64,000 nt of DNA from Labyrinthula sp. Ha (Eukaryota > Sar > Bigyra > Labyrinthulida > Labyrinthulaceae), in assembly GCA_015227615.1 (NCBI GenBank), contig JAALGZ010000007.1, positions 806,001-870,000 of the forward strand, in the 5' to 3' direction. This document shows, piece after piece, positions 2,493 through 55,313 of the stretch. The translations under genes were made by a program, and so were the position numbers. How positions within the stretch are numbered: the first letter of the stretch is position 1; each line of letters opens with the position of its first letter. The notes under the pieces were generated by a model. That model was not told the DNA's origin. It ran no database searches and saw nothing but the letters and a program-made list of their open reading frames with translations.

Positions 2493-2687
2493 TGTCGTCC
2501 TACCGACACGTCCTTGATTCCCGACTCCCGTAAATGCGTTCCAAGTGTTCTAAATCTATTTGTATTTGTAATACGTTGACATACACAAGCTTATTGTAAT
2601 ATAGTCGTTGAGTGATGTAATAACTTATCGGTTAAGCACTTCAAATCGGCATCTAATCTTTTAAGAAACACTGTACAGATATTGACA
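2493..2687 (+). repeat. 5' LTR
   Basis: 195 bp, begins TGTCGTCC and ends ATTGACA, matched along its whole length by the repeat at 10556-10750 with about 7 substitutions, most of them transitions. Preceded by TAAC, which recurs after the 3' LTR. I did not recognise a tRNA primer-binding site immediately downstream. Confidence 0.95.
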
Positions 2688-2699
2688 TTATTTGAATAA

Positions 2700-4650
2700 C
2701 GTCATGTTATAAGATGGATAACACGGATAATGAAGGAAATATAGGTCTCGAGGAAATCGAAGCGGACCGTAAGCGCACAGAGGATTTAGTATCAGGAAAT
2801 CCGGAGAAGCAAGCGTCCCCTGAAGATCAAACTTCATCGAGCCTAAGCAAAGAAGAAAGACAGGTAGATCCTGTCAAGAAACCCATCGAGTCACACCCAG
2901 TGACGCCCCCAGACGAAATCCAGGGTCAAGGTCCGCAAACCAGGAGCCAAGGGACACAGTCCCTAATGGGACTGCAAGCTTTGGAAGGAATGAACAAGAT
3001 GCGTCTGGAAGGGAAGAAAATGGAGAAGCTCGTCAAGGATATGGACGAAAAAAAAGGAACTGCAGCACATGGAAAGTCAGATATTCACCCGTGTTCAGGA
3101 TATGATCACCCAGAAAGTTGCAGCTACAGTGGCCACCCATGAGATACCAAACCCACAGCGTCCAAAGTTCAGGATAATAATGCGCAGAAAGTACCGGAGA
3201 TGAAATCTGAAACAGCGGGAAGCGGCTCACAGCAAAAGCCCTCTAGCCAAACTAACAATCGTGAGGAACAGAGTGGAAGCGAGGCAGAAGAATCAAGCTC
3301 ATCAGCAGGCAAGAGTAAGATTACAGCCAAGTCCAAGGCTCACAGCCAGATAACTGTTGTATCGGTTCCCAAAGAAAAAACGTTTCCGGAGAGTATGTCC
3401 GTTTCAACTATGAGTTATTCCGACCCATGGTCTGAAACAGGAAGTGAATATGTGGATAAAACTGCGTGGAAAAGGAGACAAGACAAACCATTGTAGGAAT
3501 ACACGCCGCCCGTTGGAACTGTAGGAGGGTTCCCTTTAGTCCAGTTCCCTCTTCCGGAGAGGCTATCAAACCTTTCTGAGACAGCAATCAAAGTTTTTTA
3601 CACGAATTCGGGGCCATCGCACCATGCGTCCCCACTCTAACTATACAGAGCTTATTGACGAAGAAGGTTTCTGATGCACTTAGATTGAGAGGAGTCAACA
3701 TAAAAGACGTCAAAGCAATTGTGAGATACCTCCAACACCACTTATCAAAATGCGAAACTAGAAAGAGATACAGATGTCTCAGTGAAATGGAGAATAAGTT
3801 GGTATGGCCAGTTGGTTCACTGGGCCAGGAGGATCAGGTCTGCCAATTTTTTGATGACGTTCATGCGTTCTTAAAATACCTGGACGAAAATGAGATGAAG
3901 ACCCATCGAAAAAGAATAATAAAAATCGTATTTAAAAAGCTACCGAAGGAAATTAAGTACAGCATGGATCAATTTCTGCTCGCCTCGAAGTCGCAAAGCC
4001 TTTCGTCATTGAAGAGGATAATATTCAGTAGCAGACATAACCTACCAACAAAAGATACGGGCGAGCAAAATGCTAACAAGAACTATAAACAAATGCACAA
4101 GCCTAAGCCGAACTTGCGAAGGATGGAGCATAACAACCCCGCCCCCCATAAACCACAGGACAGTTACATATAAAGCGCATCCAAATCATACACAACAAAG
4201 ACAACCAGTCAACCCTCGCACCAGGAGAGAAAAGGTGAAGCCGCTAAAACACTCGCGGATGTTAATAGATTGGGGGATGACGCAACTTCAATAAAGCTGC
4301 AAATGTTTGACGTAAATCAGAAGAAGTTCAGTCCGGTTAAGGGAATAACCGACACAGGGTCCGACCTTAACATGGCAAACCTGCAGAAATTGAAGCCATA
4401 TATCCTGTCCAGCGATGAGCCCCGTAAGATAAAGAACATAAGATTTCCGAACAACGCTCTAGTAAAAGTCGTCAAGGTGTGCAGAGCAAGGGTCCAGCTC
4501 ATTCAAGGTACATTCAAGCTGAACCTAGGAGAAATACTTTTCTTCGTCGTCGATTCTCCGACATGGAACGACGTAATAATTGGACGCAACATACTAAACG
4601 CGCACGGAGTTAGTTTGAACCTTCAAGACGCACCGAATACGGAGAAGTTT
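2700..4650 (+). other. LTR element part: gag-like and protease regions
   Basis: The first part is polar, glutamine-, serine- and lysine-rich, as in many gag N-termini, followed by a more ordered helical region around 3.65-4.15 kb that could be the capsid-like part; I see no CCHC zinc knuckle. Around 4.3-4.65 kb a retropepsin-like segment carries the motif DTGS (codons near 4351) followed later by an IIGRN segment, the usual start and end landmarks of the Ty3/Gypsy protease. Part of a broken fossil copy. Confidence 0.75.
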
Positions 4651-5499
4651 GAATAGGAAAAAGGCAAGGGGGAAGCAAACAAATTCACCCTGGGGCCTGT
4701 TCGAGAGAACGCACAAGCAGTTAAGACATCACACAGAGTCCAGGTTTTCGTGGACTGTTGGGATTTAATACAGAATAAAGAGGTGTTTTCCCTCAGGATG
4801 AAGACGCACACATTTATAGTGGTAATAGCGCCGCCTTTTTTATGGCCAAGAGCATTCTCACTTTGCTATGGAAACGGGTTCAGGTTAGGTGACCCAGTGT
4901 TATTCTCTCAAAGATTCACTCCGACATTCGCGGACAGAAGTTTAGCATTCCATACCAGAGGATTTAGGGTGCTAATATTTTTCAACAATAAGTATAAGGG
5001 CAGTAAATTCAGCTTATAAAGGAACTGTGATGTTGCGGAGGAAAACGTAGACGTTGAACAAACCCTAGTCAAGATTACAGAGGTCCTGTTAGGAAGGGAA
5101 CACGCTCAAATTGAATTCTCTCCCACACCTCTCTCCCCAGGAGGAACCCGCATTTGGGAAGCAAAGATGGCAGCCAAGGTGGCCAACCTAAAAGTGCTAC
5201 CATTTGAGGAAGCCGAGGACGAACATTTTGCTAAGCTAGAATAGAATGATGCCCCTCATAAAGTCCTACCTATACTCATTTCCAAAATGGTGGATAACAT
5301 TCCTGAGGAGTATAACGAGATAGGTATAGGCGAGGGGAACATTGGCGGAAAGGAAGGGAAGGAATTACTTTCCAATACCATATCTGAGAAAACGCAGGAG
5401 TCGAAACTATCAGAAAAAGGAAAGAAGGAACTTCGGCTACTCTTGGCTGAACACACAGGATCTCTGGGCCTCAAGCAAAGTAACGCCCAGATTAGTTTA

Positions 5500-8400
5500 A
5501 TGACACTGATAGAGGTCACGCTGAAACCAGGTTCTAGAGTCCTACGAGCCGATGGATATCATCTCAAGCCGGAACAGGAGAAGTTTTTAGAATTAAAATT
5601 CAAGGCATTGCAACAAGCGGGCATAGTAGAGCCCGCGAAAAACCTCATTTGGGGCCACCCTGTATTTGTGGTCCCAAAGAAGATGGCTAAACCAAAAGGT
5701 TGGGCTACTATGTCTAGCCAGGATAGAGAAAGATGGAAAGCGGATAATATTCTAAACCGTCACCGAATGGTCTCAAATATGGTAAGGCTTAACAAAATAA
5801 CCATGCCTACCAGTCTCACCCTCCCGAACCTTGAGAGACAATTATTGTCAGTCCGCGGTTCACGAGTAAACGCAACGTTGGACATACTTTCAGGCTTCAA
5901 TTTCTTGGAAACAGAAGAAAAATCCAAGGACATCTTCACGCTTGTAACGAGAAGATCGGCTTGGCGACTCAGAGAAGCGCCAATGGGGTGGATGAACACC
6001 CCAGCCTTGTTTTGCGAGCGAGTAGTCAACGAGGTGGTAGATGGAATTGAGGTTTTATTCGGCAGAGAAACAAACGGAGTAATATGTTGGCTGGATGACC
6101 TGTTAATATACGCGGAGTTTGAAAACAAGTTGCTAGAGATGCTAAAACTTCTGTTCATAAGAGCTGCCGAAAAAAGAGTCCGATTCAACTTGAGAAAATG
6201 CGACTTTACAGCGCCGAAGACAATATGGTGCCGTCGCGAAATCAAAAACGGATTTTGGAATTTTTCTCCATCCTTATACGAAAAGGTGCTGGAAATGGAG
6301 AAACCAGTCTGCAGACGCTAGATAGCACAAGCTGTTTACCTGGCTAACTGGCTAAGCTACAACATACCAAAGTTGGCGGAGCTAAGGAAGCCATTTGCCG
6401 ACTTTGCTAACCTGGGTGGGAAGAAACTGGCTGACATAGAAAGGCTGAAGCAGAAGATAGTTTGGACAGAGGCGCTAAATGAGGCCTACGAGCTGCTGAA
6501 GGAGACAATAGCACAAGCGAGCAACCGTTTCTTAACGTCATACGATCCAAGGAGTCCGCTGTTGCTCTTCACGGATTCATCCTATGACGTCTGGTCTATG
6601 GCTATTTTTCAGGATGACCACAAGAATATAACTAACGACATTCGCACCCTCAAACCAAAACCAATGATGTTCTTAAGTGGAAGTTTCACGCCAAGTGAGC
6701 AGCGTTGGCACATTGCCAGCAAGGAGTTGTATCCCATAATCTACTCCTTTGAAAGAGTGGGATTTTTTGCTTAGAACACATACCGGTGGTTTGTATGTTT
6801 ACACAGACCACCGGGCATTACTCTCAATTCTCAGAATAAAAGAAAACGAAAAGAGAATATATTGGGATCGCCTATACAGATGGGCGATCCGGTTGCAGAC
6901 CGTGGATTTTACAGTCTTTCACATACCGTCGAGAGACAACTTTTTCAGCGACCTGTTAACTAGATGGGCGGTAGAAGAAAAGTCCAACGTAGCACGAGTC
7001 ACAGCGTTTGAAAATCTCTATGAGTACTATGATCAAGATAAGGGGGAAAGCATCCCGTTGAGGTCGGACTTTGGAGGTTACGATGAAAAGCCCCAGGATA
7101 CAGACGAAATAGCCGAGGTCGCATGGCTCGAGTCAGGGGCCAGACAAGATCTGGAAGCAGTTTATTTTGAACCCGCTACAGAAGGATTGGAGTACGAACG
7201 CGAGCTTTCAGCCAGTTTTGGGAACGTCAGGAACACGACCGCAGCCTCAACGCAGGCTACCAGCGATGGAAGAAGCAAGGACGACAACAATGACGACGGA
7301 ACTTTGTTGGACCCGAGAATAATGCACCCCACTGACGAAACAATTCATAGCGCGTACAACAGCGTGGTAGAGGAATTGTTTCAAGAACACATCTCGTATC
7401 TCTCGCCGTCCTACCACAAGAAGTGGGAGGTTTTCGAGGAGGAGGTCTTAAAAAAACGACAGGATAAGCTCAGCCAGGAATTTAAAGAAAAGTGCGAAGC
7501 AAAAGAGGGTCTACTCTATAAGGAAGGAAAGCTTGTGATTCCCAAGTCACTGTGCTCGAGATACATCGTTACCAATCACATAAATAAAGCGCACCCGAGC
7601 AAAACAGCTGAGAACAAATATTTGAAAGCAGTTCATTTTGAAGGAGTGGACCGGAAATCCCTTGACCTGCTGCTAAAAAGTTTTAGAAGGCGATGTCTCC
7701 ACTGCCAGAGGGAACCCTTCCTCATACGGCGGCCATACAAGATGACGCCGTTGGCAAGGAGGACACGCGAGATTATCCACGCCGGTTATTTATACATAAA
7801 TAAGACCGGATACATCCTCGCGGTGATGGACTCATGTTCTAGAAAAGTAATGTTGTAGCATGCGGAGAAATGCACGGCTGGCAAGATGGTTGAGACCATC
7901 CTGAGATGGAGAGCAGACTTAGGCCTAGCAGACCAGTTCTGCGTCATTACAGACAATGGATCACATTTCTCGAACAAGCTAATAACACAGCTTTCAAAGG
8001 TCATAGGATTTGAGCAGACATTTACCGTCGCCTACTCCCCTTGGCCAAACGGGAGTATTGAAACGGTGAACTCCCAAATCCTGAAGATTATCAGATCCCT
8101 TACCTCTCAGTATGGCCTCCATGAAACGGAGTGGCCTGGCCTGCTACCAGTAATCGCATATGTATTAAATAATAGGCCAGTTAGTAGAAGGGCGAACCTT
8201 ACACCAAACAAGATTTTTATGCGTTTCAGGCTAGAAGAGCCTCTTATACAGAAGTCTAGAAAGCATTTTGCGATCAAGCTGCAGCAAGACATGTCAATCC
8301 CAGTCAACACTGGAGAGCTCCTCGACAGTGTGGATAAGTTCAGATCAGGACTAGATGCAATACAAGAAAAGGTTTATAATTCAACACTCCTCAAGCGAGA

Positions 8401-8650
8401 TTTGGACCTGTCCAGGAAGAATAAGAACAGAAATGTCCTCTTGCAGTATGCTCCAGGTGACTATGTGATGGTCTCCGAATACGGGACGCAGAACGCGAAG
8501 GAGAAGACTAAGCCCACGTGGCTGGGTCCCTACCAGGTGGTATGGGGCGTCTCCAATAGCGTATACGAGGTGGAAAGCGTCATGGCAAAGTTGAAAACGG
8601 TACACGCATCCTGCATGTGGTTTTATTTGCACCGGCCACCCACGCGACAC
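5500..8650 (+). other. LTR element part: reverse transcriptase, RNase H and integrase regions
   Basis: Reverse transcriptase lies at about 5.5-6.3 kb, with the palm motif LDDLL in the position of the usual YVDDIL (near 6091). RNase H lies at about 6.4-7.0 kb (FTDSS, later YTDHRAL). Integrase lies at about 7.4-8.65 kb: an H-H-C-C zinc-binding segment near 7.57-7.72 kb, then a core with VMDS, ITDNGS and SIETVN, the last two acidic residues being 36 codons apart as in DD35E integrases. Order and motifs are those of Ty3/Gypsy elements. Part of a broken fossil copy. Confidence 0.88.
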
Positions 8651-8689
8651 CCGAAGCTTAGATCTCTGTTTTCCCACAACTATAGCAGC

Positions 8690-9215
8690 CTTGAGGTAAG
8701 CAAGATAAGAGCAATAGGTATTTCCGAGGGCCACAAGCCGAGATATAAGACCAAGGTCAGTTGGTTGGGCTTTGAAAGAGGTAGGGATACATGGCAGGAC
8801 TTGCAGCGGCTATATGAAGACGTCCCACTAATGGCCAGGAATTTTGTGGAAAGCAAATTGGAGGAAGTGGAAATAAAAACCAACATACTGGTACACCTAG
8901 AACAATGGGACACGGAGAAACTAGATCGTCTAAGAAAAAGGGGGAAAAAATCTAAACGAAATAAAAAGAATAAGTTGAATAGAGTGGAAGCACCGGACAA
9001 GGAGGCAAGATGCAGCTACCTGAAGATATCTCCATATGGTAAGGAGGAGGTACCGGCAACAAAAGTGTGGTATGATCCGGATAAGGAGATCCTTGCAGTC
9101 CTTATTTACAGATTCGGGTGTGGAAACTACGAGGCCTTTAAGTCGAGTAACTACTTGCCGTATAGGACAAAGCAACAACTTTCAACGCAGACACAGAGGC
9201 TAATTGGAATCCAAT
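8690..9215 (+). other. LTR element part: chromodomain-like and Myb/SANT-like segments
   Basis: Just after the integrase, about 8.69-8.87 kb encodes a chromodomain-like stretch (KTKVSWLGFE, then DTWQDL), the usual C-terminal addition of chromoviruses. A basic lysine-rich linker follows, and at about 9.06-9.21 kb comes a Myb/SANT-like stretch: an initial W, acidic residues, IYRFGCGNYEAF, then YLPYRTKQQLSTQTQRLIG. A helix pattern with GxGN..A and a YLPGRT-like turn is characteristic of Myb/SANT domains. Both are DNA- or chromatin-reading folds in other proteins. The chromodomain assignment is weaker than the Myb-like one. Confidence 0.65.
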
Positions 9216-9899
9216 ACATCGGTATTTTCCACGGCCTCCATTTCAAGCCAGAAAAAGCAAAGGAATTTTTGGCAGAGAACTTTGGTATTAAAGAATTTCA
9301 TCGCAATATACCAGGGAAGATGAACCTCATTAAGGAAAAAGAGCAGATACTAAAACAGTTCAAGGCTGAAATATGCGCCTCACCCGAAGAAGCAGCAAAG
9401 GCCCCTGTGTCTTATTTCAGACGCCTGACACAACTGGACCATGTTAACCTGCTCATCGCGGAATTTAATGAACCAGAATGCAAGAAGTTTCTACGTAACA
9501 CGAAGTTCTCGAGTAAGAGAAGCTTGGAGCAGTTGGCTGAACAGTTCAACGCCGCTAGGTCCTCTGGAATCAGAGAAAACGAGGACTACATTGAATTATC
9601 ATACCAGCTGATGGTCGAAGTACCTGAGATCTGGAACGATTTATCACTGCTCCGCACGGAGGTCATCTGCAGAATCGATGAGGGGATACCCCCTATGCCT
9701 TTTAACATGCCGTTTACATATAAATACGGGACTTCAACACTTTCCCTCGACCTTAAGGGAAACAAAATAGAGTTGACTTTCTTAAAGTTTGACTCGTTGG
9801 ATCAGGTGCCCTTCAGGTTTTATTATATAGGCGGAAACCGATACCAGGTGGCGGGGGCGACGGGAACCTTTTTCTTGGAACCGCCGAACACAAAAATTA

Positions 9900-10510
9900 T
9901 GATGGGTAATGTCTTCGACTTGAAATTTGACCACCCGATGGCTAAGAAGAACATTTATACGCTGTTGGTGATGGATCCTCCATGGAGGGCTGGAATAGGT
10001 GACCCTACTAGAGGCGTCACTTTACCATATCCTACCATCTCATTGCAGAAGTTCTCCCAAATGCAGCTACCTTTAAACCATTTTCCTTTTGGCACATTTT
10101 TATTCATTTGGGTTACGAACATTAGTTTTAGGGATGTGTTGGCTTGGGCTGAGAAACAGCATTACTATATTAGTGATGAAATGGGATGGATTAAGAGGCA
10201 CCCCTCCGGAAAGTTGCACAAGTCCCTGGGCTATTTCTTGCAGCATAGCCAGGAGACTTGTTTGGTATTCGAACGCCGATCTAAACCAGAAGTTGTTTAT
10301 CAGAACACCTTCGAGGAAGATAACTTGAAGTCTTTTTCTAACTATTTTTCTACCAACCCTTTGGATCCTTCTATGAAACCTGATTTATTTTATCGAATGT
10401 TAGAAGAGACCTTTCCTACTAGAAATAAAATTGAGTACTTTGGACGTTGGAACAACATACGATGTGGCTGGACTACGTGTGGACAAGATTTGATCGCCCC
10501 GGCCCAACTA
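9900..10510 (+). other. LTR element part: MT-A70 family adenine methyltransferase domain
   Basis: The end of the element's coding region shows the MT-A70 signature: a hydrophobic strand leading into MDPPW (DPPW at 9974-9985), then PYPTIS, FLFIWVTN, a glycine-tryptophan WIKRHPSGKLHKSLGY segment, and a terminal FGRWNN..CGW stretch. These correspond in order to the DPPW catalytic motif, the SAM-binding 'FLWVTN' strand, the W-K.....G...GY region and the 'ELFGRR.N...GW' end of the METTL3/METTL4/ciliate-AMT family, which methylate the N6 position of adenine in RNA or DNA. Its presence at the C-terminal end of a retroelement polyprotein region is unusual. It lies less than 60 bp before the polypurine tract, so it belongs to the element and is not a later host insertion. 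Whether it acted on DNA or RNA is unknown. Confidence 0.88.
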
Positions 10511-10544
10511 TCTTTCTTACAACACAGCCGTGCCGCTACATTCT

Positions 10545-10555
10545 AAAAAAGGGGA
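10545..10555 (+). other. Polypurine tract of the LTR element
   Basis: AAAAAAGGGGA lies directly before the 3' LTR. This is the position and composition expected for the plus-strand primer of LTR retroelements. Confidence 0.8.
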
Positions 10556-10750
10556 TGTCGTCCTACCGACACGTCCTTGATTCCCGACTCCCGGAAATGC
10601 GTTCCAAGTGTTCTAATTCTATTTGTATTTGTAATACGTTGACATGCACAAGCCTATTGTAATATAGCCGTTGAGTGATGTAATAACTTATCGGTTAAGC
10701 ACTTCAAATCGATATCTAATCTTTTAAGAAACACTGTACAGATATTGACA
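10556..10750 (+). repeat. 3' LTR
   Basis: 195 bp, TG...CA, the same length as the 5' LTR and about 96% identical by eye. It is followed by TAAC (10751-10754), the second half of the target-site duplication. Confidence 0.95.
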
Positions 10751-10754
10751 TAAC

Positions 10755-12434
10755 ATCCGTGTCATATATGGGTTTCAAACAATCCTGTGAAACACTACAT
10801 TTGTGTAAAATTTTATATATTTTGGATCGGTACAATAGCATGAGGTAGAACTTTGAATTAACATGTTGCTCTAGTGAAAACAGTAGAATACATAATAAAC
10901 CATCTGCAAAATTTAATAAGAAACAATCATATAAACGTCCAAACAAAGGATACTGAGAAAATTTTATTTGTATCCGGAGGAAGTTATGGAAGTGAACTAT
11001 GGAACGTCAAAGGTAGGGAGGTGTGTATGTCGCGTAAGACTAATCATCCCACTATATCAAACTCGGTTTCCCGAAACAAATCCGAAAATCATGATCTATT
11101 AAGTCAGAAATGCAAACATATGAAAGATGAGTAGTATAAACTTCGCAGGAGTAAAGGAAGAAAGGCAAGGCAAATAGTCAGAGGGTTGTATTGAAATCAT
11201 AAGCCAAGTGAAGCTGGACTTTGAAACAGCTTTGAGACAACTGGGGCTACATCTCTTACCACAAAACCCATCACCGTAGGAAAATCTAAACTATCATTTG
11301 GAAAAATGCTGAGCCCGTACCTTGGGGAATAAAAATTTAATAACCACCAATATTACTGACTAAAGCTAGTTCCCTGCTCTTTGAGATCGTGCTGACATTA
11401 AATTCTATAAAAGGCAACACTACTTAAAATTATAAACTTGAACAAGAATAAAAGAAAACAGCTTAGAGATCATTTCCTTCAATATATAGCTGTTGCTTTA
11501 AGTAACCTCAATTCGTCTCTGGGGTTAGACTTGTAGTTTTATGCCATGGATTTTGTGCCACAAGGTGGTTTATTGCCTGCGAGAAGCAATTTCACATTTG
11601 TTTATGTTTGATACAAAGTAGGAATGAAGCTAACCGAGAACGATCGCTCTCCAGGTGCAGTAGGTCCCTAATACATGCTATATAATGGGTTAGAATACTT
11701 TAATTTGTTGATTCCTAAAGAATTTAACATGGCTGCTAGTCCTTGGTTGTATATCTGCCTGCCACAGAAATAATCCCAGTAATACCTACTGACATGTTTC
11801 AGGTTTTAAACTAACAGGGTCATCTTAAATTTGGGTGTAGTATCTAACTAAATTTTGCTTCTTGGAACTTTTGTTCTTAACTTTAAATCAAATTCTGTGC
11901 TAACTTCACTCATGAAAATAATTCTTATTAATATGTTCATATAGTATAAAAATTATTTAATTCGCGTAAGTTGAAATTACTACCTATTTAATTGCTCCTA
12001 ATTTGCCGCTATTTTAATTCACACAATAATATTATGGGGTCTTATTTCTTATGGTAGATTATTTTTCTTAACTTATCTACTAGTTGATGGCCAACAATAT
12101 TATTAACCAATAGTACCACTATACCCCTAGGGCACACTATGTAGAAACTTAGCTAGTGAAACACCAAGAGCAATAAACAAATGTGAACCAGAAAGAGACA
12201 ACCCATTGGTACAGAACATTCCCTCCTTTTGCTTGTGAAATTAATCATATTTGGAGTTAGCTCTGGAGACTCGAGAAAATTCAATCTTATCAAGTTTTCC
12301 AAGATTAATTTAGGTTGGATATCACAACTATGTTTGATGAGATTGAAATAAACACACCTAGTTTTATCTAACCATAAACTCAATTCCCAAACGAAAAGTT
12401 ATCATATAATATTCAAAATGAGAGGAAAGAAATC
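10755..12434. other. Intergenic, no gene supported
   Basis: AT-rich sequence between the retroelement and the 3' end of the next minus-strand gene. Short open frames (up to about 86 codons) show no conserved motif. No RNA gene or repeat recognised. Confidence 0.6.
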
Positions 12435-33576: not shown

Positions 33577-36328
33577 TGCATTTTACTGCACATACGCCAT
33601 GAAGCACCGAGAAGTCAAGACCAAGAATCATCTTTGCCTTTGATAACTGAAAAGGTATGTGATAGTTCTTTGTCGAAGAGTTCGATTATATTGCCCCAAG
33701 TACGAGTTTAGTCTATATATCTTTCGCTTTCTTGTATCTTAATTCTTGTTTGTATGGTCAACGTGCTGTAGCTGCTAAATGGCAGGCTTAAAACTTTCAC
33801 CAGTAAAATCATCGAGTTGCAGCCATTTTCTTGCGACGGATCTTAGCAAACTTTTTTCACTCTAACCATGTAAAGAGATTCATACTAAAAAAGTATTAAT
33901 ACCTATGGCTCGAAGTATTCCAGTTTCCCCGTAGGCTAGAAAGAAGAAAAATCAAGAGAATTCTTTGAGTTTTCATCGAGATAATAGTAGCTATTAAGGA
34001 AAGAAGAGATTTACTTGCAATTAGTTAGAAGAGTCTCTTCTATAAAATCTAGTACTAATAAGATATAGAGGGACATCTACAACCAAAAACCTTCTACTTC
34101 GCATTAAATTTTGTTTATTCTGCTTAGTCCAACTTTCTCAAATATGTTTTTAGTTTACCCTCGCTTGCTAAGTTGACTACATAGGTTAGCTAAATGACAA
34201 GTAGAAAGTTTATATATAAATACAAAGCCTTTAAATTTTAAGACATCTTAATATAGAAATTTTTGTGAGTCTACGTAAAACAGCACACTTCATCAGCTGA
34301 ATAAAGCCACTGTCCGTTCATTAGAACATTCCTCCCAGTTTCACGTATTTTATGATTTAACTCATCCCTTGAAAATCTTATAAATAGCAATATATTAAAG
34401 ATATTGTCTGCAATTTAGGTGTTAAGACTAGGATGAAATAAGTTGGACTTATATGCAGAACAAAATCTCTCAAAGACTTGAGTTCTAATCAAGCTTTAAA
34501 TTGAATGAGGTGAAAAGAACGTGTAATCAAACCTTTTCATTCTGCTGTAAGCAATATGAAAAGAAATTAACTTGGTAGCACAAAGCAGTAGATCTATATC
34601 TTTGGTGAATATTTAATAGCTTCTGGGTTAGGATTTTCAATTAGGCTCAGCAACGGTGAAGTATAATCGTTTCTATGAGGCAAGTTTAATATCATATTCA
34701 TGATTAGAATCGTAGTCCTCAGAAAATCGAAACAAGTCAGTAATTTGCCTTTCTATGTAGCGCACTTGGGTAATCTATTCTATTTTCGAGCTCTTAGGGT
34801 ATATTAAAGTATATTTAAAACCTGTTGAATGGCTCTTTGATCATAAAATTCGTCTTTCAGGTTTGGCACAGAGCTGTGCTCTAATGTTGAATACAATACC
34901 TACTGGAGATCATACTTGATACTTAAGAAATAAGAAATATAGTTACGTGCCAGAATACGAAAAAATTGAGGATATCAAAGCAAAATGTAGCATAGTGCCT
35001 TTGGCACTAGCCTACATAAATGGCATCTGATAAATAACGGAATGCTCTAAATTAATTTAATTTCGTAGAGACTATTTCAAAAATAATGTTAAGTTTTACC
35101 TTCAGTTTTTCAACATGTTTCTTGCAAAGTTTTCTTATTTCCTATGCTGTACAACGTAGATTGCGATTTTGATTGACCATATTATCCTTAACGAAAAATG
35201 TCCATATTGCTAGCGTAGCTAGGGTAAGTCGACATTGCTTCGTATTCAAAAAGTATATATCTAAATTTTTTCACTCACAAAATGTTCCGGTTGCTATCTA
35301 TACAGTCGATGACCAATTATGCTTTAGCTCTGTAAACTAATTTTTTGGAATATATATTTACATTTTATACCAATGATGAGTCTTGAGGTGTTTCATTTAT
35401 TGAGTTCTTGCAACCTTTTTATCATGAACAAAATAGTACGTGGTAAATGTTCATAATTAAGTGAGTAGCTAAGGGCCTGATTCCAGGGTAGCCGCTAATT
35501 GGATTAAGCTTAGGAGCATCAATTTTACACCCTCTAAAGCTAGAGAAAATATAATCCTACTGGTCACACGCCATGGTTCATATGAGTATATAGTTATGCT
35601 ATTTAAACTACGGTTACGGCGCATGTTCCAGGAACTTGTGTTTCTTCTCAAAATGTTTTCTTGGCGCTATATTTAGAGCTTTAGTACGAACGACGGAAAT
35701 ATTCTTAGTTAAAAGAAGTATATGATTTATTGTAACACTATTAAACCAGGTTTCTTATCTTCCTAGATGGCAACGGACAAGTTGCAATGGTAAGAAGCAA
35801 GTTTCTTTGTCCAGTAAGGAGTGTTCTTTTACTTGAATTTTCCTTCCTTTCATTGGGTTCATCATCTCTACATAATATAATCCTTGAAAATATAAACGCA
35901 ATATAAGTATTTATTAAAATCATTTTTCATAAATTTTGTACATATATAGCAATACAACGTAACGTATGTTCTAAGACTTAGCAAGAAGGGTTAAGAGATT
36001 TGTCTCCAAAACTAAAACACTTTCTGTGTAATAAATGAAAGTTTTTTCCATCCAACGAAAATATTACAAATTAGACTGAGCTTAGTCTCTGATAAAATTT
36101 AAGTAAAGGAAAGGAGATGGCTTTAAGTCTTTTTGCCACCCAGGAGTCTCAAGCTTCAGGATTTCCTAGCTTTGCCCAAAATTAGTGCAGTAGATACATT
36201 AATACTTCTTCGTGCCACGTCATCTAGTACAAATACACACTTGCGTATTCTATATTCAATAAAGCGGGATTGATTCTGAGTTCTGACCGCGTAAGCCAGC
36301 TACTTTAAAGAAGGCGTATTATAAACAA
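33577..36328. other. Intergenic, no gene supported
   Basis: About 2.75 kb of AT-rich sequence upstream of both flanking genes, which point away from it, so it must hold their promoters. No open frame above 60 codons looks coding, and no repeat was recognised. Confidence 0.55.
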
Positions 36329-37201
36329 ATGCAGCGAGGAAAACTGGTTTCACCACCACCACCAAATCAAGTAGACACTTTTGATGATATTGATATTGAT
36401 GAAGAAGTCTTTTCAGAGCAAAGTGATCCACACGTCTTGATTTTACCTCCTAATTCACCTGAACATGAAAATACCCCAGCAACTGCTGCAAGGTACAAAG
36501 TGGTCCTTGATGAGGATAACGAATCTCAACAAACTTTTAGCCCATTTTTAGAGATGACGAAGAAGATTGGAAAACAAAAAGGACCTTTGGGAAGAGTGAA
36601 GTCAGATAATTTTTTTGGAACAAAAAAGGAAAAGAATAAAACAAAAAAGAAGCTTGGCATAACAGCAAAACTTACTTTGGGATTCCTAATCCTGTTAATT
36701 CTTAGCTTAATAGGAGCTCTTGGATATACCTACATAACTACTACAAACAATTCTGGCTCAGGTCTACTTGAAGTTAATAATCCAACTACTTCACCAACCT
36801 TGGCACCAACTTATAGCCCAACTACGCCTTTTCCAACGCTTTCACCAACGGATGCTCCCTCAAAATCGCCAACACTAACCCCTACCAAAAGTCCTACTAA
36901 TTCTCCTTCTGAATCACCAACAAAGTTTCCTACGGCATTTCCCTCTGAAAGCCCTACAAATTTTCCTACTACACCCTATCCTACACCGTTTCCCACAACA
37001 CCCTATCCAACATTATATCCTACAGAAAGCCCTACACCTTTTCCCACAACTCCTTATCCCACTTTATTTCCTACAACAAGTCCTACACTCTCACCTACAC
37101 CTTTTCCCACAACTCCATTTCCTACTAGTTTCCCAACAGATGCTCCTACACTATTTCCCACAACTCCATTTCCTACTCTTTTTCCAACTACGTCCTTGTG
37201 A
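36329..37201 (+). CDS. Type II membrane protein with Pro/Thr/Ser-rich extracellular stalk
   Basis: 290 residues. The cytoplasmic part is acidic then basic (KKEKNKTKKK just before the membrane). One transmembrane helix spans about residues 114-136 (LTLGFLILLILSLIGALGY). From residue 150 to the end the protein is a repeat of the kind PTxSPT / FPTTPYPT, built at the DNA level from 12- to 24-nt tandem units. Such stalks are common in surface proteins of stramenopiles and other algae and are usually O-glycosylated; here they would project from the cell or into a secretory lumen. No folded domain follows the stalk, which stops abruptly, so the gene may have lost one. Convergent with the vWA gene, also type II. 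Confidence 0.8.
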   Translation: MQRGKLVSPPPPNQVDTFDDIDIDEEVFSEQSDPHVLILPPNSPEHENTPATAARYKVVLDEDNESQQTFSPFLEMTKKIGKQKGPLGRVKSDNFFGTKKEKNKTKKKLGITAKLTLGFLILLILSLIGALGYTYITTTNNSGSGLLEVNNPTTSPTLAPTYSPTTPFPTLSPTDAPSKSPTLTPTKSPTNSPSESPTKFPTAFPSESPTNFPTTPYPTPFPTTPYPTLYPTESPTPFPTTPYPTLFPTTSPTLSPTPFPTTPFPTSFPTDAPTLFPTTPFPTLFPTTSL

Positions 37202-51703: not shown

Positions 51704-54700
51704 TCAGGATGGAAGAATTTCGTTTATTTGCTCCAGCAGCTGAATATAGTCCATTGGGTTCATTCCTCTTCCTCCAGTTGTTATTCTCGACGTTTCTCTT
51801 AGTGCTTTAGGTGATATTCTGGTTGCTGCGTTTTCTGTGGGTTGATTGTGGATGTTGTATCTTGGTCGAAGGATGGGTGTTGTTGGTCTTCTGTTCGTGT
51901 CCATGTTCCTGTTCATATCCAAGTCCAAGTCTGTATTCCTGTTCAAGTCCAAGTCCGTGTTCCTGTTCATGTCCAACTTCCTGTTCAAGTGCTGGTTCCT
52001 GTCCAAGTTTTCTTCTGGTTCCTGGTTTCCTGTGCAGTTTGAAGGTTGGTTCTCATTTTCAGGGTAGTGGGTAAAGTGGGATGGTGGTGGGTCCTCAGGC
52101 GGCACTGGTTCTTCTCCTAGTAAGGCAAGCGCTTCATAGTAGTATATAGGTTTTGCTCTTGGCGGTGGTGATGGGTTTTGAAGTTGGTATTCTCGCAACG
52201 CTGTTAGTTCTTTGTCAATGATATCTTTTACAGTGGATCTATGGTTTTCCTGACGCTTTTTTACTATATTGGCAAAATCCAAGTCGCCCTCTTCTAGTTG
52301 GAAGTTGTAGTCCTCTATTCAATCAATGACTTTTTTCAGCCTTCTTGATATCTTTGTTAAGGCTTTTGTTATCTTCACGTTGGATGGCCAGTTCTCTACA
52401 TTGTATATGGCTGGAGCTATTACTAGTGCTCTTGCCAGATTGATTCTTGTTTTCTTTTGGATGTTTGAGGAAGATAATATGTCTCTGAACCTGTTGATAT
52501 GATTGTGTGCTTCATCTAACTTCTTGGAAATAGCATCAGCATTAATACCTTGTGGATCAAAGATAGCTCCAACATATTTGTACTTTTCCACAGCTTCAAT
52601 TGTTTCTCCTGCTACTTCAACGTTGTTTGTTTTGGGCTGGATTTTGTCGTGAATGAGCGTTCTACTGTCTGTAACAGCTAAAGTTCCAGCTCTGCTTCTG
52701 TTGCGTGTTCCATCACAAAACCTTGAGCTTTTGTGACACCTTTGTGACGTTTCCGAGTGAAAATATCTATCGCAACGTTCACAGTGGAAGTTGGTTAATA
52801 TTCTATTTATATCTACATTTGGTATTTTATCAACTAAACTGTATCCTTCGTTCGTGAGCATAACTTATGTCTTGCTAATATTAATTTTTAGGCCCGTGAG
52901 TTGCTGAAGGTTTTGCAGTTGCGTTACAAAGCTGATTATTTCTTCGTCGTTCCTTGTTAGTATTATCAAGTCGTCTGCAAAAACAAAGTATCTGAAGGTT
53001 TGATTGTGTAGGCTGGTTCCTTGTAAGGTATTATTTTTTATTCTCTTCATTATAGAGTCAAGACAGAGGATAAAGATGCTTGGAGACAAACTATCTCCTT
53101 GAAGCACACCTTTTTTTATGTTTAATAAACTACTTTTTTCTCCGCTGTCTGAAACGAAAACTTTGGTCTTGTCGTAAAGGATGGTGATAAGTTTGATGAG
53201 TTTTTTTGGTACATGGTGTTCTTCCAGAGCTAACTTCATGAACTTGTGAGAAATACTATCAAAAGCTTTCGCAAAGTCTATGAAAAGAATTCGAAGATAT
53301 ATTTTCTGTTTCAGAGTTTCCTTTATGATTGTATCAAGTGCTTCAATTTTCTGTATCGTTGAGTGGTTGTTTCTGAATCCTGCTTGGTAATCTGGGAGTT
53401 TATTTAGTATTGCTGCTATTCTGTTGTTGATGATTTTTGTGAGGAGTTTGAAGTGAGTGTTCAATAGTGAGATTGGTCTATAATTGGAGGGATCATTTTT
53501 ACTTCCTTTCTGCTTGTATAGATACACTACTTTGCCTCTGCAGATTTTCCTCATCTTTTTAGACTTGAACGCATCTAGCCTAAAGAAAGATTGGATTTCT
53601 CTAACAGCATGACTTTGAACTATTTCAACGTGCTTTAGGACTTCGTTTCTTATGTTATCTGGTCCTGGAGCTTTGTTATTTTTTAGGGTTTTGATGCATT
53701 CTTTGATCTCTTCTGCCTTTGGAGGATGTATGTTTATGCTGTTCGAAGGAGCCGGTGCAAGTATTGGAGTTTGGTAATGTCGTATTTGGTTTTCCGTCAA
53801 CAAGTTCGTTGGAAGTGGTAGGTTTTGTTGTTTCTCTAAATATTCTTTTAGTATCTGGATACGACCTGCGGTTCCCACCAACTTCCCAGCTGTATTCTTG
53901 GTTATTTTACCGAACTGTTTACGGACTGGTTTTACCTTCTTTATCAGTTGGTACCCAGTTCTCGTATTGTTGCTTTGAAATGCAGTTTCTATTTCAGACG
54001 CTATTCTCTCCAACCAGTTGCTGTAGTCTTCCTTAGCTGATGTTTTTACTTCGTTTGTAATTCTTTTCTTCTCCTCAGAATTCAGGTTGTTCCAGTTGGC
54101 TCGTTTGTACCGCATCAAAGAAATGGTTTGTTCCGAGTTTTGGTGTTCAGGAAGGTTGTACTTGACTTCTGGGAGATGTTTCTTCATGATGGATGGGATT
54201 GAGTGGGTTAGTGTAAGGTAGGTGTCTGTGAGTGCGTCGTTTAGTTCAAGTACCTCTTTGAGTTCGCTGTTTATCTTTTCCTGTAGCGCTGCGTTGGACC
54301 TTAGTGTACTGTAGTCAAGCTGAGATCTGGTTCTCTTCCCCGGTGTATGTTTCGGATGTATGTTCACTCTTACTGTAAGAGCAAGATGGTCAAAATTTTT
54401 CTTCATCGACAGGTTGTATGCTATGGTTGAGGATATTTTGAAGCCAGTTATTGCAGGTACATGGTTCGTGATTACATAGTCAATTTCAGATGGCCCCCCA
54501 CTATTTGACCTTGGTATGAATGTAGCATGTTTCCTAGATCCTTTTTTGCCTGTAACAGCTAAATGGTTACAGATTGTTAGCTCTTTTTCTTTCAAGAACT
54601 CCACCAAGAGTTTACCATTAGAATTCGTACGATGAGAGAGTCCTAGTTTACCTTCTACATTTAATTCCTTTCTTGAAACTTGAGCATTGAAATCACCACA

Positions 54701-55255
54701 AATGAGAACCAACCGTCTCTTGTTAACTCCATTCAGCTTCGACTTGAGCTCCTTCAGGTACATCTTGTACGTTTATTGACCGTGACCGCAGTGTGGCGCG
54801 TAAGTGTTAACCAAAACGAGACTTCTTTTTCCACCTAGTTTGACAACCAGCTTCAGGATCCTGTCGCTTCTTCCGTCTGTGTCCGTTACTTGACTAGCAA
54901 GCTCGTTACACAGGAAAGTCGCTACGCCCGCCGCTTTTTCAGGCAGTTTTGAGAAAAACCACCTTCCTGAAGCCGAGCAAACGTTCACCATTCGCTGTAG
55001 GCGTTGCATTCCTTGCTTGTGCAGTTCCTGTAACATTAAAATTTCAGTTTTTTTAGTAAGTTGTTGTACGTAGCTGCACTTAAAGGCAGTTAGACCACCA
55101 ACATTCACGCTCACCAGTTTAGGAAAGCGCTTCAGTCGGCTCGCTATCCCTGGGACTTCTCTCGAAGGAGTAGACAGGTCGCTACTCTGAAAACTTTGCA
55201 TTTTAGCTTCGTCCTTGACGTTGTTTTCACAAGCCCAAAATTTTCTAGAATACAT
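51704..55255 (-). mobile_element. LINE (non-LTR retrotransposon), near-complete ORF2
   Basis: A single reading frame of about 1,184 codons runs on the minus strand and is interrupted only by three stop codons: TAA at 54773-54775, TAA at 52865-52867 and TGA at 52319-52321. There is no frameshift. The N-terminus is an apurinic-like endonuclease (LVSVNVGGL, EILMLQELH, VNTYAPH, then CGDFNA near 54.7 kb). Reverse transcriptase follows: APGPDNIRNEVLKH, YRPISLLNTHFKLLTKII, QAGFRNNHS, GVLQGDSLSPSIF and FADDLIILT (about 52.97 kb). After GLKINISKT comes an unusual C2H2-like insert (about 52.72-52.80 kb), then the thumb (VEKYKYVGAIFDPQG). The last 190 codons are proline-rich with NRNTDLDL-type repeats. 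APE plus RT places it among LINEs of the RTE/L1/Jockey broad group; I cannot choose the clade. The second stop sits where related LINEs have lysine (KTK), the third where tryptophan would fit, so they look like recent point mutations. Confidence 0.88.
51900..52015. repeat. Short tandem repeat within the LINE ORF2 tail
   Basis: Imperfect units of roughly 18-30 bp built on TTCCTGTTCAAGTCC (plus strand) encode repeats of the type NRNTDLDL / DMNRN on the minus strand. It appears to have grown by slippage. Confidence 0.7.
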
Positions 55256-55313
55256 CACATAAATTCAAGATTGTCCAAATACGCCACTCTTACATTTCTG
55301 GCATATTTTCTGA

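Follow-up and report, generated by a model that had tools for sequence, protein, structure and literature searches.

We analysed a window of 64,000 nucleotides from Labyrinthula sp. Ha (contig JAALGZ010000007.1, positions 806,001 to 870,000 of the forward strand), in which two long terminal repeats (LTRs) enclose an element that, judging from the order of its domains and from domain models, would be a Ty3/Gypsy-like LTR retrotransposon. Its final pol frame (7859-10546, 895 aa) carries an MT-A70 methyltransferase domain at residues 700-876, which was detected by the Pfam model PF05063 with an E value of 5.9e-15 (56.1 bits versus a cut-off of 23.9). The stop codon of this frame (10544-10546) overlaps the polypurine tract. 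A preliminary description had placed an MT-A70 domain with a DPPW motif at 9900..10510, between the integrase and the polypurine tract of an LTR-bounded element, and this architecture was found as described, with weak integrase matches in the window copy, all below cut-off (rve E 0.19; integrase C-terminal models E 0.02-0.09). The two LTRs, of 196 nt each and with TG..CA ends, are 96.4% identical and are flanked on either side by TAAC, a 4-bp target duplication that is weak evidence taken alone. The following features were assigned:

2493..2688, + strand: 5' LTR, 196 nt, TGTCG...GACA, preceded by TAAC (2489-2492)
2689..2702, + strand: presumed primer-binding region (putative), near-palindromic, similar in relatives
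2696..4170, + strand: gag region, named by position, interrupted in the window copy
4174..4653, + strand: protease region with a DTGSD motif recognised by eye, no Pfam match, followed by UAG at 4654-4656
5818..6213, + strand: reverse transcriptase (RT; RVT_1, PF00078, 2.8e-11, 43.9 bits, cut-off 29.6), in the frame 5245-6318
6322..6771, + strand: RNase H (PF17919 7.6e-12 and PF17917 9.5e-9, both above cut-off)
6740..8630, + strand: connection and integrase region, interrupted in the window copy
8690..8860, + strand: chromodomain-like segment, assigned by eye and by position relative to four related copies (L031-L034)
9065..9253, + strand: p1-type Myb/homeobox-like DNA-binding domain, from its sequence match to Tetrahymena p1
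9956..10486, + strand: MT-A70 methyltransferase domain, AMT1/MTA1 type (PF05063)
9974..9985, + strand: DPPW catalytic motif, inside the MT-A70 domain
10004..10015, + strand: PTRG, shared with AMT1 and absent from the METTL3, METTL14 and METTL4 sequences compared
10545..10555, + strand: polypurine tract, adjoining the 3' LTR
10556..10751, + strand: 3' LTR, followed by TAAC (10752-10755)

The window copy is decayed, with in-frame stops and two frame changes in gag and in the RT-integrase part; the final 895 codons of pol are open. No Pfam match was obtained for its gag region in the three frames scanned, nor a credible one for the open counterpart of that frame in the related copy L031 (308-2143), and the chromodomain-like segment of the window copy gave no Pfam call. 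The stretch 3' of the 5' LTR (2689-2702, also in L032 and L034) is a near-perfect palindrome of the TTATTCGAATAA type, which would be odd as a tRNA primer site. A tRNA scan across the window found none.

Copies of the element across the genome

Searches were run over the 50.8-Mb genome, and the lists used here are the best-scoring subsets of longer candidate lists, merged by hand. An MT-A70 match was found at no fewer than about 297 places, fragments included, one of which is a host gene. The Pfam MT-A70 search contributed the best 150 of 354 candidates, all above cut-off, and the last 348 residues of the window frame, used as a query, the best 116 of 427. Among the best 150 of 379 RT_RNaseH candidates, 87 had a listed MT-A70 match 2.4-3.2 kb downstream on the same strand, and the corresponding controls gave 2 on the opposite strand and 3 upstream. 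A more divergent MT-A70 query, applied under a looser rule and with no control, added a match to 34 of the 63 remaining loci, making 121 of 150. The MT-A70 domain is thus a regular C-terminal domain of pol in a large Ty3/Gypsy-like set, and neither a chance motif nor a single insertion. The preliminary description had allowed for a one-off insertion; the genome-wide scale, the chromodomain and the p1-type domain ahead of the methyltransferase go beyond it.

The other 29 of the 150 scored RT_RNaseH loci showed no MT-A70 match within the set distance. They include C115:10017, with an MT-A70 match 0.7 kb downstream, and C96:283866, which lies about 2 kb from a contig end. Also among these 29 are the RNase H matches ranked 1-11 and 13, which may represent a lineage without the MT-A70 domain. 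At three places, C132:669891 (G000), C66:2246754 and C68:365166, RNase H is followed at about 1.8 kb by a p1-type Myb match, and no MT-A70 appears there among the matches listed; these may be copies without the methyltransferase.

Six relatives (L031-L036) were taken for comparison. The first five are bounded by LTRs that are 97-99% identical, and no LTR was found for L036 in the stretch fetched. Frames run open from before RT through MT-A70 over 1968 aa in L031, 1956 in L032, 1914 in L033, 1904 in L034 and 2660 in L035; that of L036 (1544 aa) begins within RT and includes MT-A70. The order RT, RNase H, integrase, MT-A70 is the same in all six. The rve model scored above cut-off in two of them (L031 and L036), narrowly missed it in L032 and stayed below it in L033-L035. 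Behind the integrase, the chromodomain model PF00385 was above cut-off in L031-L034 and below it in L036, and in L035 a weak match to chromodomains of the PDB was seen (E about 0.03). The elements that host the module appear to be mostly chromodomain-bearing.

A single UAG, followed by GA, separates pol from the upstream frame, named gag-protease by position, in the window copy (4654-4656), L031 (2144-2146), L033 (1984-1986) and L034 (2713-2715). In the last three the two frames are in the same reading frame, parted by this one codon. L032 also has a single UAG at the matching place before pol, with an interrupted upstream frame, and L035 is one frame throughout. The UAG-GA junction resembles, at sequence level, the arrangement seen in readthrough expression.

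Distances between methyltransferase domains agreed with those between upstream parts (Mantel rho 0.844, reached in 0 of 2000 permutations; 18 of 33 loci after thinning), which argues that the module travels with its element.

Affinity of the methyltransferase and of the p1-type domain

The preliminary description had left the subfamily open within METTL3, METTL4 and the AMT proteins. By sequence, the window MT-A70 domain is most similar to AMT1/MTA1, ahead of METTL3, which came second, METTL4 and METTL14. The chain compared as METTL4 is 7cv6, whose PDB name is Methyltransferase-like protein 2; we take it to be METTL4, presumably of Arabidopsis, and it was the best match to what we take to be the human METTL4 sequence. 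Motifs were counted over 65 distinct element loci, the window included, which comprised 53 alignable domains, 8 partial ones and 4 without an open match. Among the 53, the catalytic motif reads DPPW in 40, DPAW in 12 and YPPW in one, and PTRG is present in 49; AMT1 has PTRG/PSRG. The closest similarity being to AMT1, DNA is the likelier target. METTL3, METTL14 or METTL4 as the source was set aside because they are less similar than AMT1, although the tree gives the L035-like and DPAW lineages no firm position. A viral source was likewise rejected: the weak loci returned by two scans of viral contigs (5 in one, 1 in the other) have 24-28% identity, and one of them (L071) seems to be a phage contig in which MT-A70 is a gene of its own.

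The domain at 9065..9253 matches Tetrahymena p1 with 6.4e-4, and profile A1 gave 4.6e-8 for p1 versus 0.45 for the next Myb. Of the 150 scored p1-type matches in the genome, 118 have an MT-A70 match 0.24-1.06 kb downstream of them. With a p1-type domain before an AMT1-type methyltransferase, the elements encode a single-chain p1-AMT1 module behind the integrase. The region between the two domains is helical in a predicted model. The predicted model of the L035 C-terminus had a mean pLDDT (predicted local distance difference test) of 41.6 and was not used. Counterparts of MTA9 and p2 were not recognised in the elements, only the p1 and MTA1 parts. In the lineage of L035 and in related ones, the p1-type domain is separated from the methyltransferase by an aspartic protease-like stretch, whose location downstream of the integrase is unusual. 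RVP was matched in 4 of 6 members (best 2.1e-5) among L035 1044-3302 (- strand), L069, L070, L052, L039 and L037, the L035 match reaching 19.0 bits against a cut-off of 20.7. The position of this stretch suggests that the methyltransferase is cut free; in the window lineage, a protease motif read by eye stands at the end of the upstream frame instead.

The host itself has an AMT1-like gene (L044, open frame of 327 aa with an MTA1-like ending), which pairs with Tetrahymena AMT1 at 96/88, and two genes that resemble p1 (L076 and L077). When four element pol frames were compared with these three genes, the match was confined to the methyltransferase or the p1-type part; no such RT or integrase thus accompanies the genes within 1.5-3.5 kb. 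The L076 frame has an extra C-terminal part that is Tudor-like by eye.

The module is kept by purifying selection on its open copies. The ratio of nonsynonymous to synonymous substitution (dN/dS) was determined on the methyltransferase domain by the Nei-Gojobori method for pairs with dS 0.02-1.5, and group medians were 0.06-0.18. The window copy versus L003 gave 0.06 (1 of 10 pairs usable), the L033 group a median of 0.12 (range 0.06-0.19; 21 of 45 pairs), the L052 group 0.16 (0.05-0.34; 11 of 28) and the L060 group 0.07 (2 of 3). The DPAW group, despite its altered motif, had a median of 0.18 (0.09-0.47; 11 of 21). Three other groups had no usable pair. For the upstream 400 aa, three groups had usable pairs, and their medians were 0.10-0.16.

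Possible role of the module

Ty3/Gypsy-like elements appear to have taken in a p1 DNA-binding domain together with AMT1/MTA1, fused as a C-terminal module of pol. We favour, with a probability of roughly 0.6, the reading that the elements use this module to mark their own DNA with N6-methyladenine (6mA) and thereby stay in permissive chromatin. The single-chain p1-AMT1, released or tethered at the integration complex, would methylate adenine, probably at ApT, in the element cDNA or in the fresh insertion. For a dimer partner, a role that AMT6/7 has in the host complex, the module would rely on the host or pair with another copy of itself. In AMT1-bearing eukaryotes 6mA concentrates at ApT close to transcription starts and accompanies trimethylated lysine 4 of histone H3 (H3K4me3), with exceptions (PMC12695648). 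Because 6mA marks permissive chromatin in such eukaryotes and the host has AMT1-like and p1-like genes whose products could reproduce the mark when DNA is replicated, a new insertion would begin its life marked as active and escape silencing. The broader proposal of a self-sufficient, element-encoded 6mA writer, by which single-chain p1-AMT1 puts the host's permissive mark on insertions, host AMT1 maintains it and the elements shape the 6mA landscape of the genome, is tentative, and we put it at slightly less than an even chance.

Several observations weigh against self-marking with 6mA. AMT1 is reported to require its partners (PMC12695648, PMC9852454), and chromodomains elsewhere are reported to steer elements to heterochromatin, which is awkward with an active mark. 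DPAW replaces DPPW throughout one subclade (L037-L043 and L045-L049), and L026 has YPPW. No clear ApT enrichment was seen in the window copy, the ratios, which carry no significance test, being 0.98 and 1.07 for the LTRs and 0.83 for the flank. When folds were compared, METTL3 and MTA1 tied in structural Z with METTL3 first at 19.6, in a comparison that hardly covered the p1 part of the module. The dN/dS values come from open frames only, which favours constrained copies, and their pairs share sequences.

Phylogeny adds further points of this kind. In a tree of 33 chosen rows, METTL14 and METTL4 included, the window lineage joined AMT1, at just 87/91; the elements did not form one group (3 changes; one group in 0% of bootstrap trees), and the long METTL4 branch fell among the L051/L037 lineages at 91/90. 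In a second tree, from which METTL14 and METTL4 were left out, a split at 94/87 separated the AMT1 pair from the elements. A tree had been proposed at the outset as a check on family membership; it placed the window lineage with AMT1, did not unite the elements and left their deeper lineages unresolved. Holding 28 elements together versus host AMT1, Tetrahymena AMT1 and METTL3 was not rejected by the approximately unbiased (AU) test (p-AU 0.284). A single capture of the MT-A70 domain is compatible with this result and is not established by it.

The altered motif of the DPAW subclade also bears on a reading in which nothing is methylated and the module steers integration or competes, with the AMT complex of the host, or promoter chromatin rich in 6mA, as the docking site for its p1-type domain and MT-A70 fold. 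The module does sit behind integrase and chromodomain, a position used elsewhere for targeting. However, a catalytic motif is needless for targeting alone, and its retention as DPPW in most element domains, with purifying selection on the domain, makes this reading rather unlikely. Self-marking by 6mA also has to be weighed against an RNA writer that would place N6-methyladenosine (m6A) on the element's own transcript and act on its stability, packaging or translation. The METTL3 branch of MT-A70 enzymes does place m6A on RNA, and METTL3 is the second-best sequence match and ties in structural Z as given above; yet the sequence lies nearer to AMT1, with PTRG common to both, and the adjoining domain is the DNA-binding domain of p1, which like p2 is reported only alongside AMT1 (PMC12695648). 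We consider an RNA target quite improbable. That one host AMT1 fragment was inserted by chance in, or beside, one decayed element can be dismissed: the window copy is indeed broken upstream of its final frame, but the many copies, their narrow spacing, the long open frames between LTRs and the stop codon inside the polypurine tract rule out a one-off insertion or a chance motif.

Capture of DNA methyltransferases (DNMTs) by retroelements has a known precedent. KnitGypsy-Dnmt3 of Klebsormidium nitens has a DNMT in its Gypsy Pol polyprotein with a reported Ka/Ks < 0.2, and DIRS and LINE (long interspersed nuclear element) elements of Symbiodinium carry DNMTs (PMC5890265). As in these, the Labyrinthula elements hold a captured eukaryotic enzyme, probably acting on DNA, in many copies in one genome; in contrast to the DNMTs, which make 5-methylcytosine (5mC) and are unrelated to MT-A70, they have an adenine methyltransferase of the AMT1 kind and a second-subunit domain of the same host complex. 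A retroelement-borne adenine methyltransferase is also found in DIRS elements with Dam-like enzymes (cited in PMC5890265), but there it is of bacterial Dam type in tyrosine-recombinase elements, whereas here it is of eukaryotic MT-A70/AMT1 type in integrase elements. Ectocarpus Sola1 (ParB and DNA methyltransferase, PMC12477816) likewise combines transposon-borne DNA binding and methylation, possibly for self-marking, although it is a DNA transposon with a methyltransferase of prokaryote type. The Tetrahymena MTA1 complex, MTA1-MTA9-p1-p2 (PMC9852454; PDB 7yi8, 7f4l), shares the MTA1-type methyltransferase with N-terminal helix and the p1 homeobox/Myb-like domain; it consists of four separate proteins, whereas here both parts stand in one chain within pol. 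No report of an MT-A70/AMT1 domain in a transposable element was found in the open literature searched, mostly outside which lie the subscription journals, and the accessible portions of PMC12695648, PMC5890265, PMC12477816, PMC9852454 and PMC5408684 contain none.

According to a 2025 survey, eukaryotic MT-A70 families are relatively static (PMC12695648). Here, an AMT1-like domain has been spread by retrotransposons to hundreds of places, joined to the DNA-binding domain that belongs to its partner. Should the module be active, it would be a naturally occurring 6mA writer in one chain, a simpler arrangement than the complex of four proteins, and insertions with and without it in one genome would offer a direct test of the role of 6mA. 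Self-marking, if true, would parallel DNMT capture on the adenine side, directed toward activation and not silencing: the element would adopt an activating mark instead of resisting one that silences.

Other features of the window

Frames at 51707-55264 (- strand) resemble, by eye, an endonuclease-RT element of LINE type, with stops interrupting them. In an open frame at 36287-37198, a hydrophobic stretch that may span the membrane is followed by a long tract of Ser/Pro/Thr repeats.
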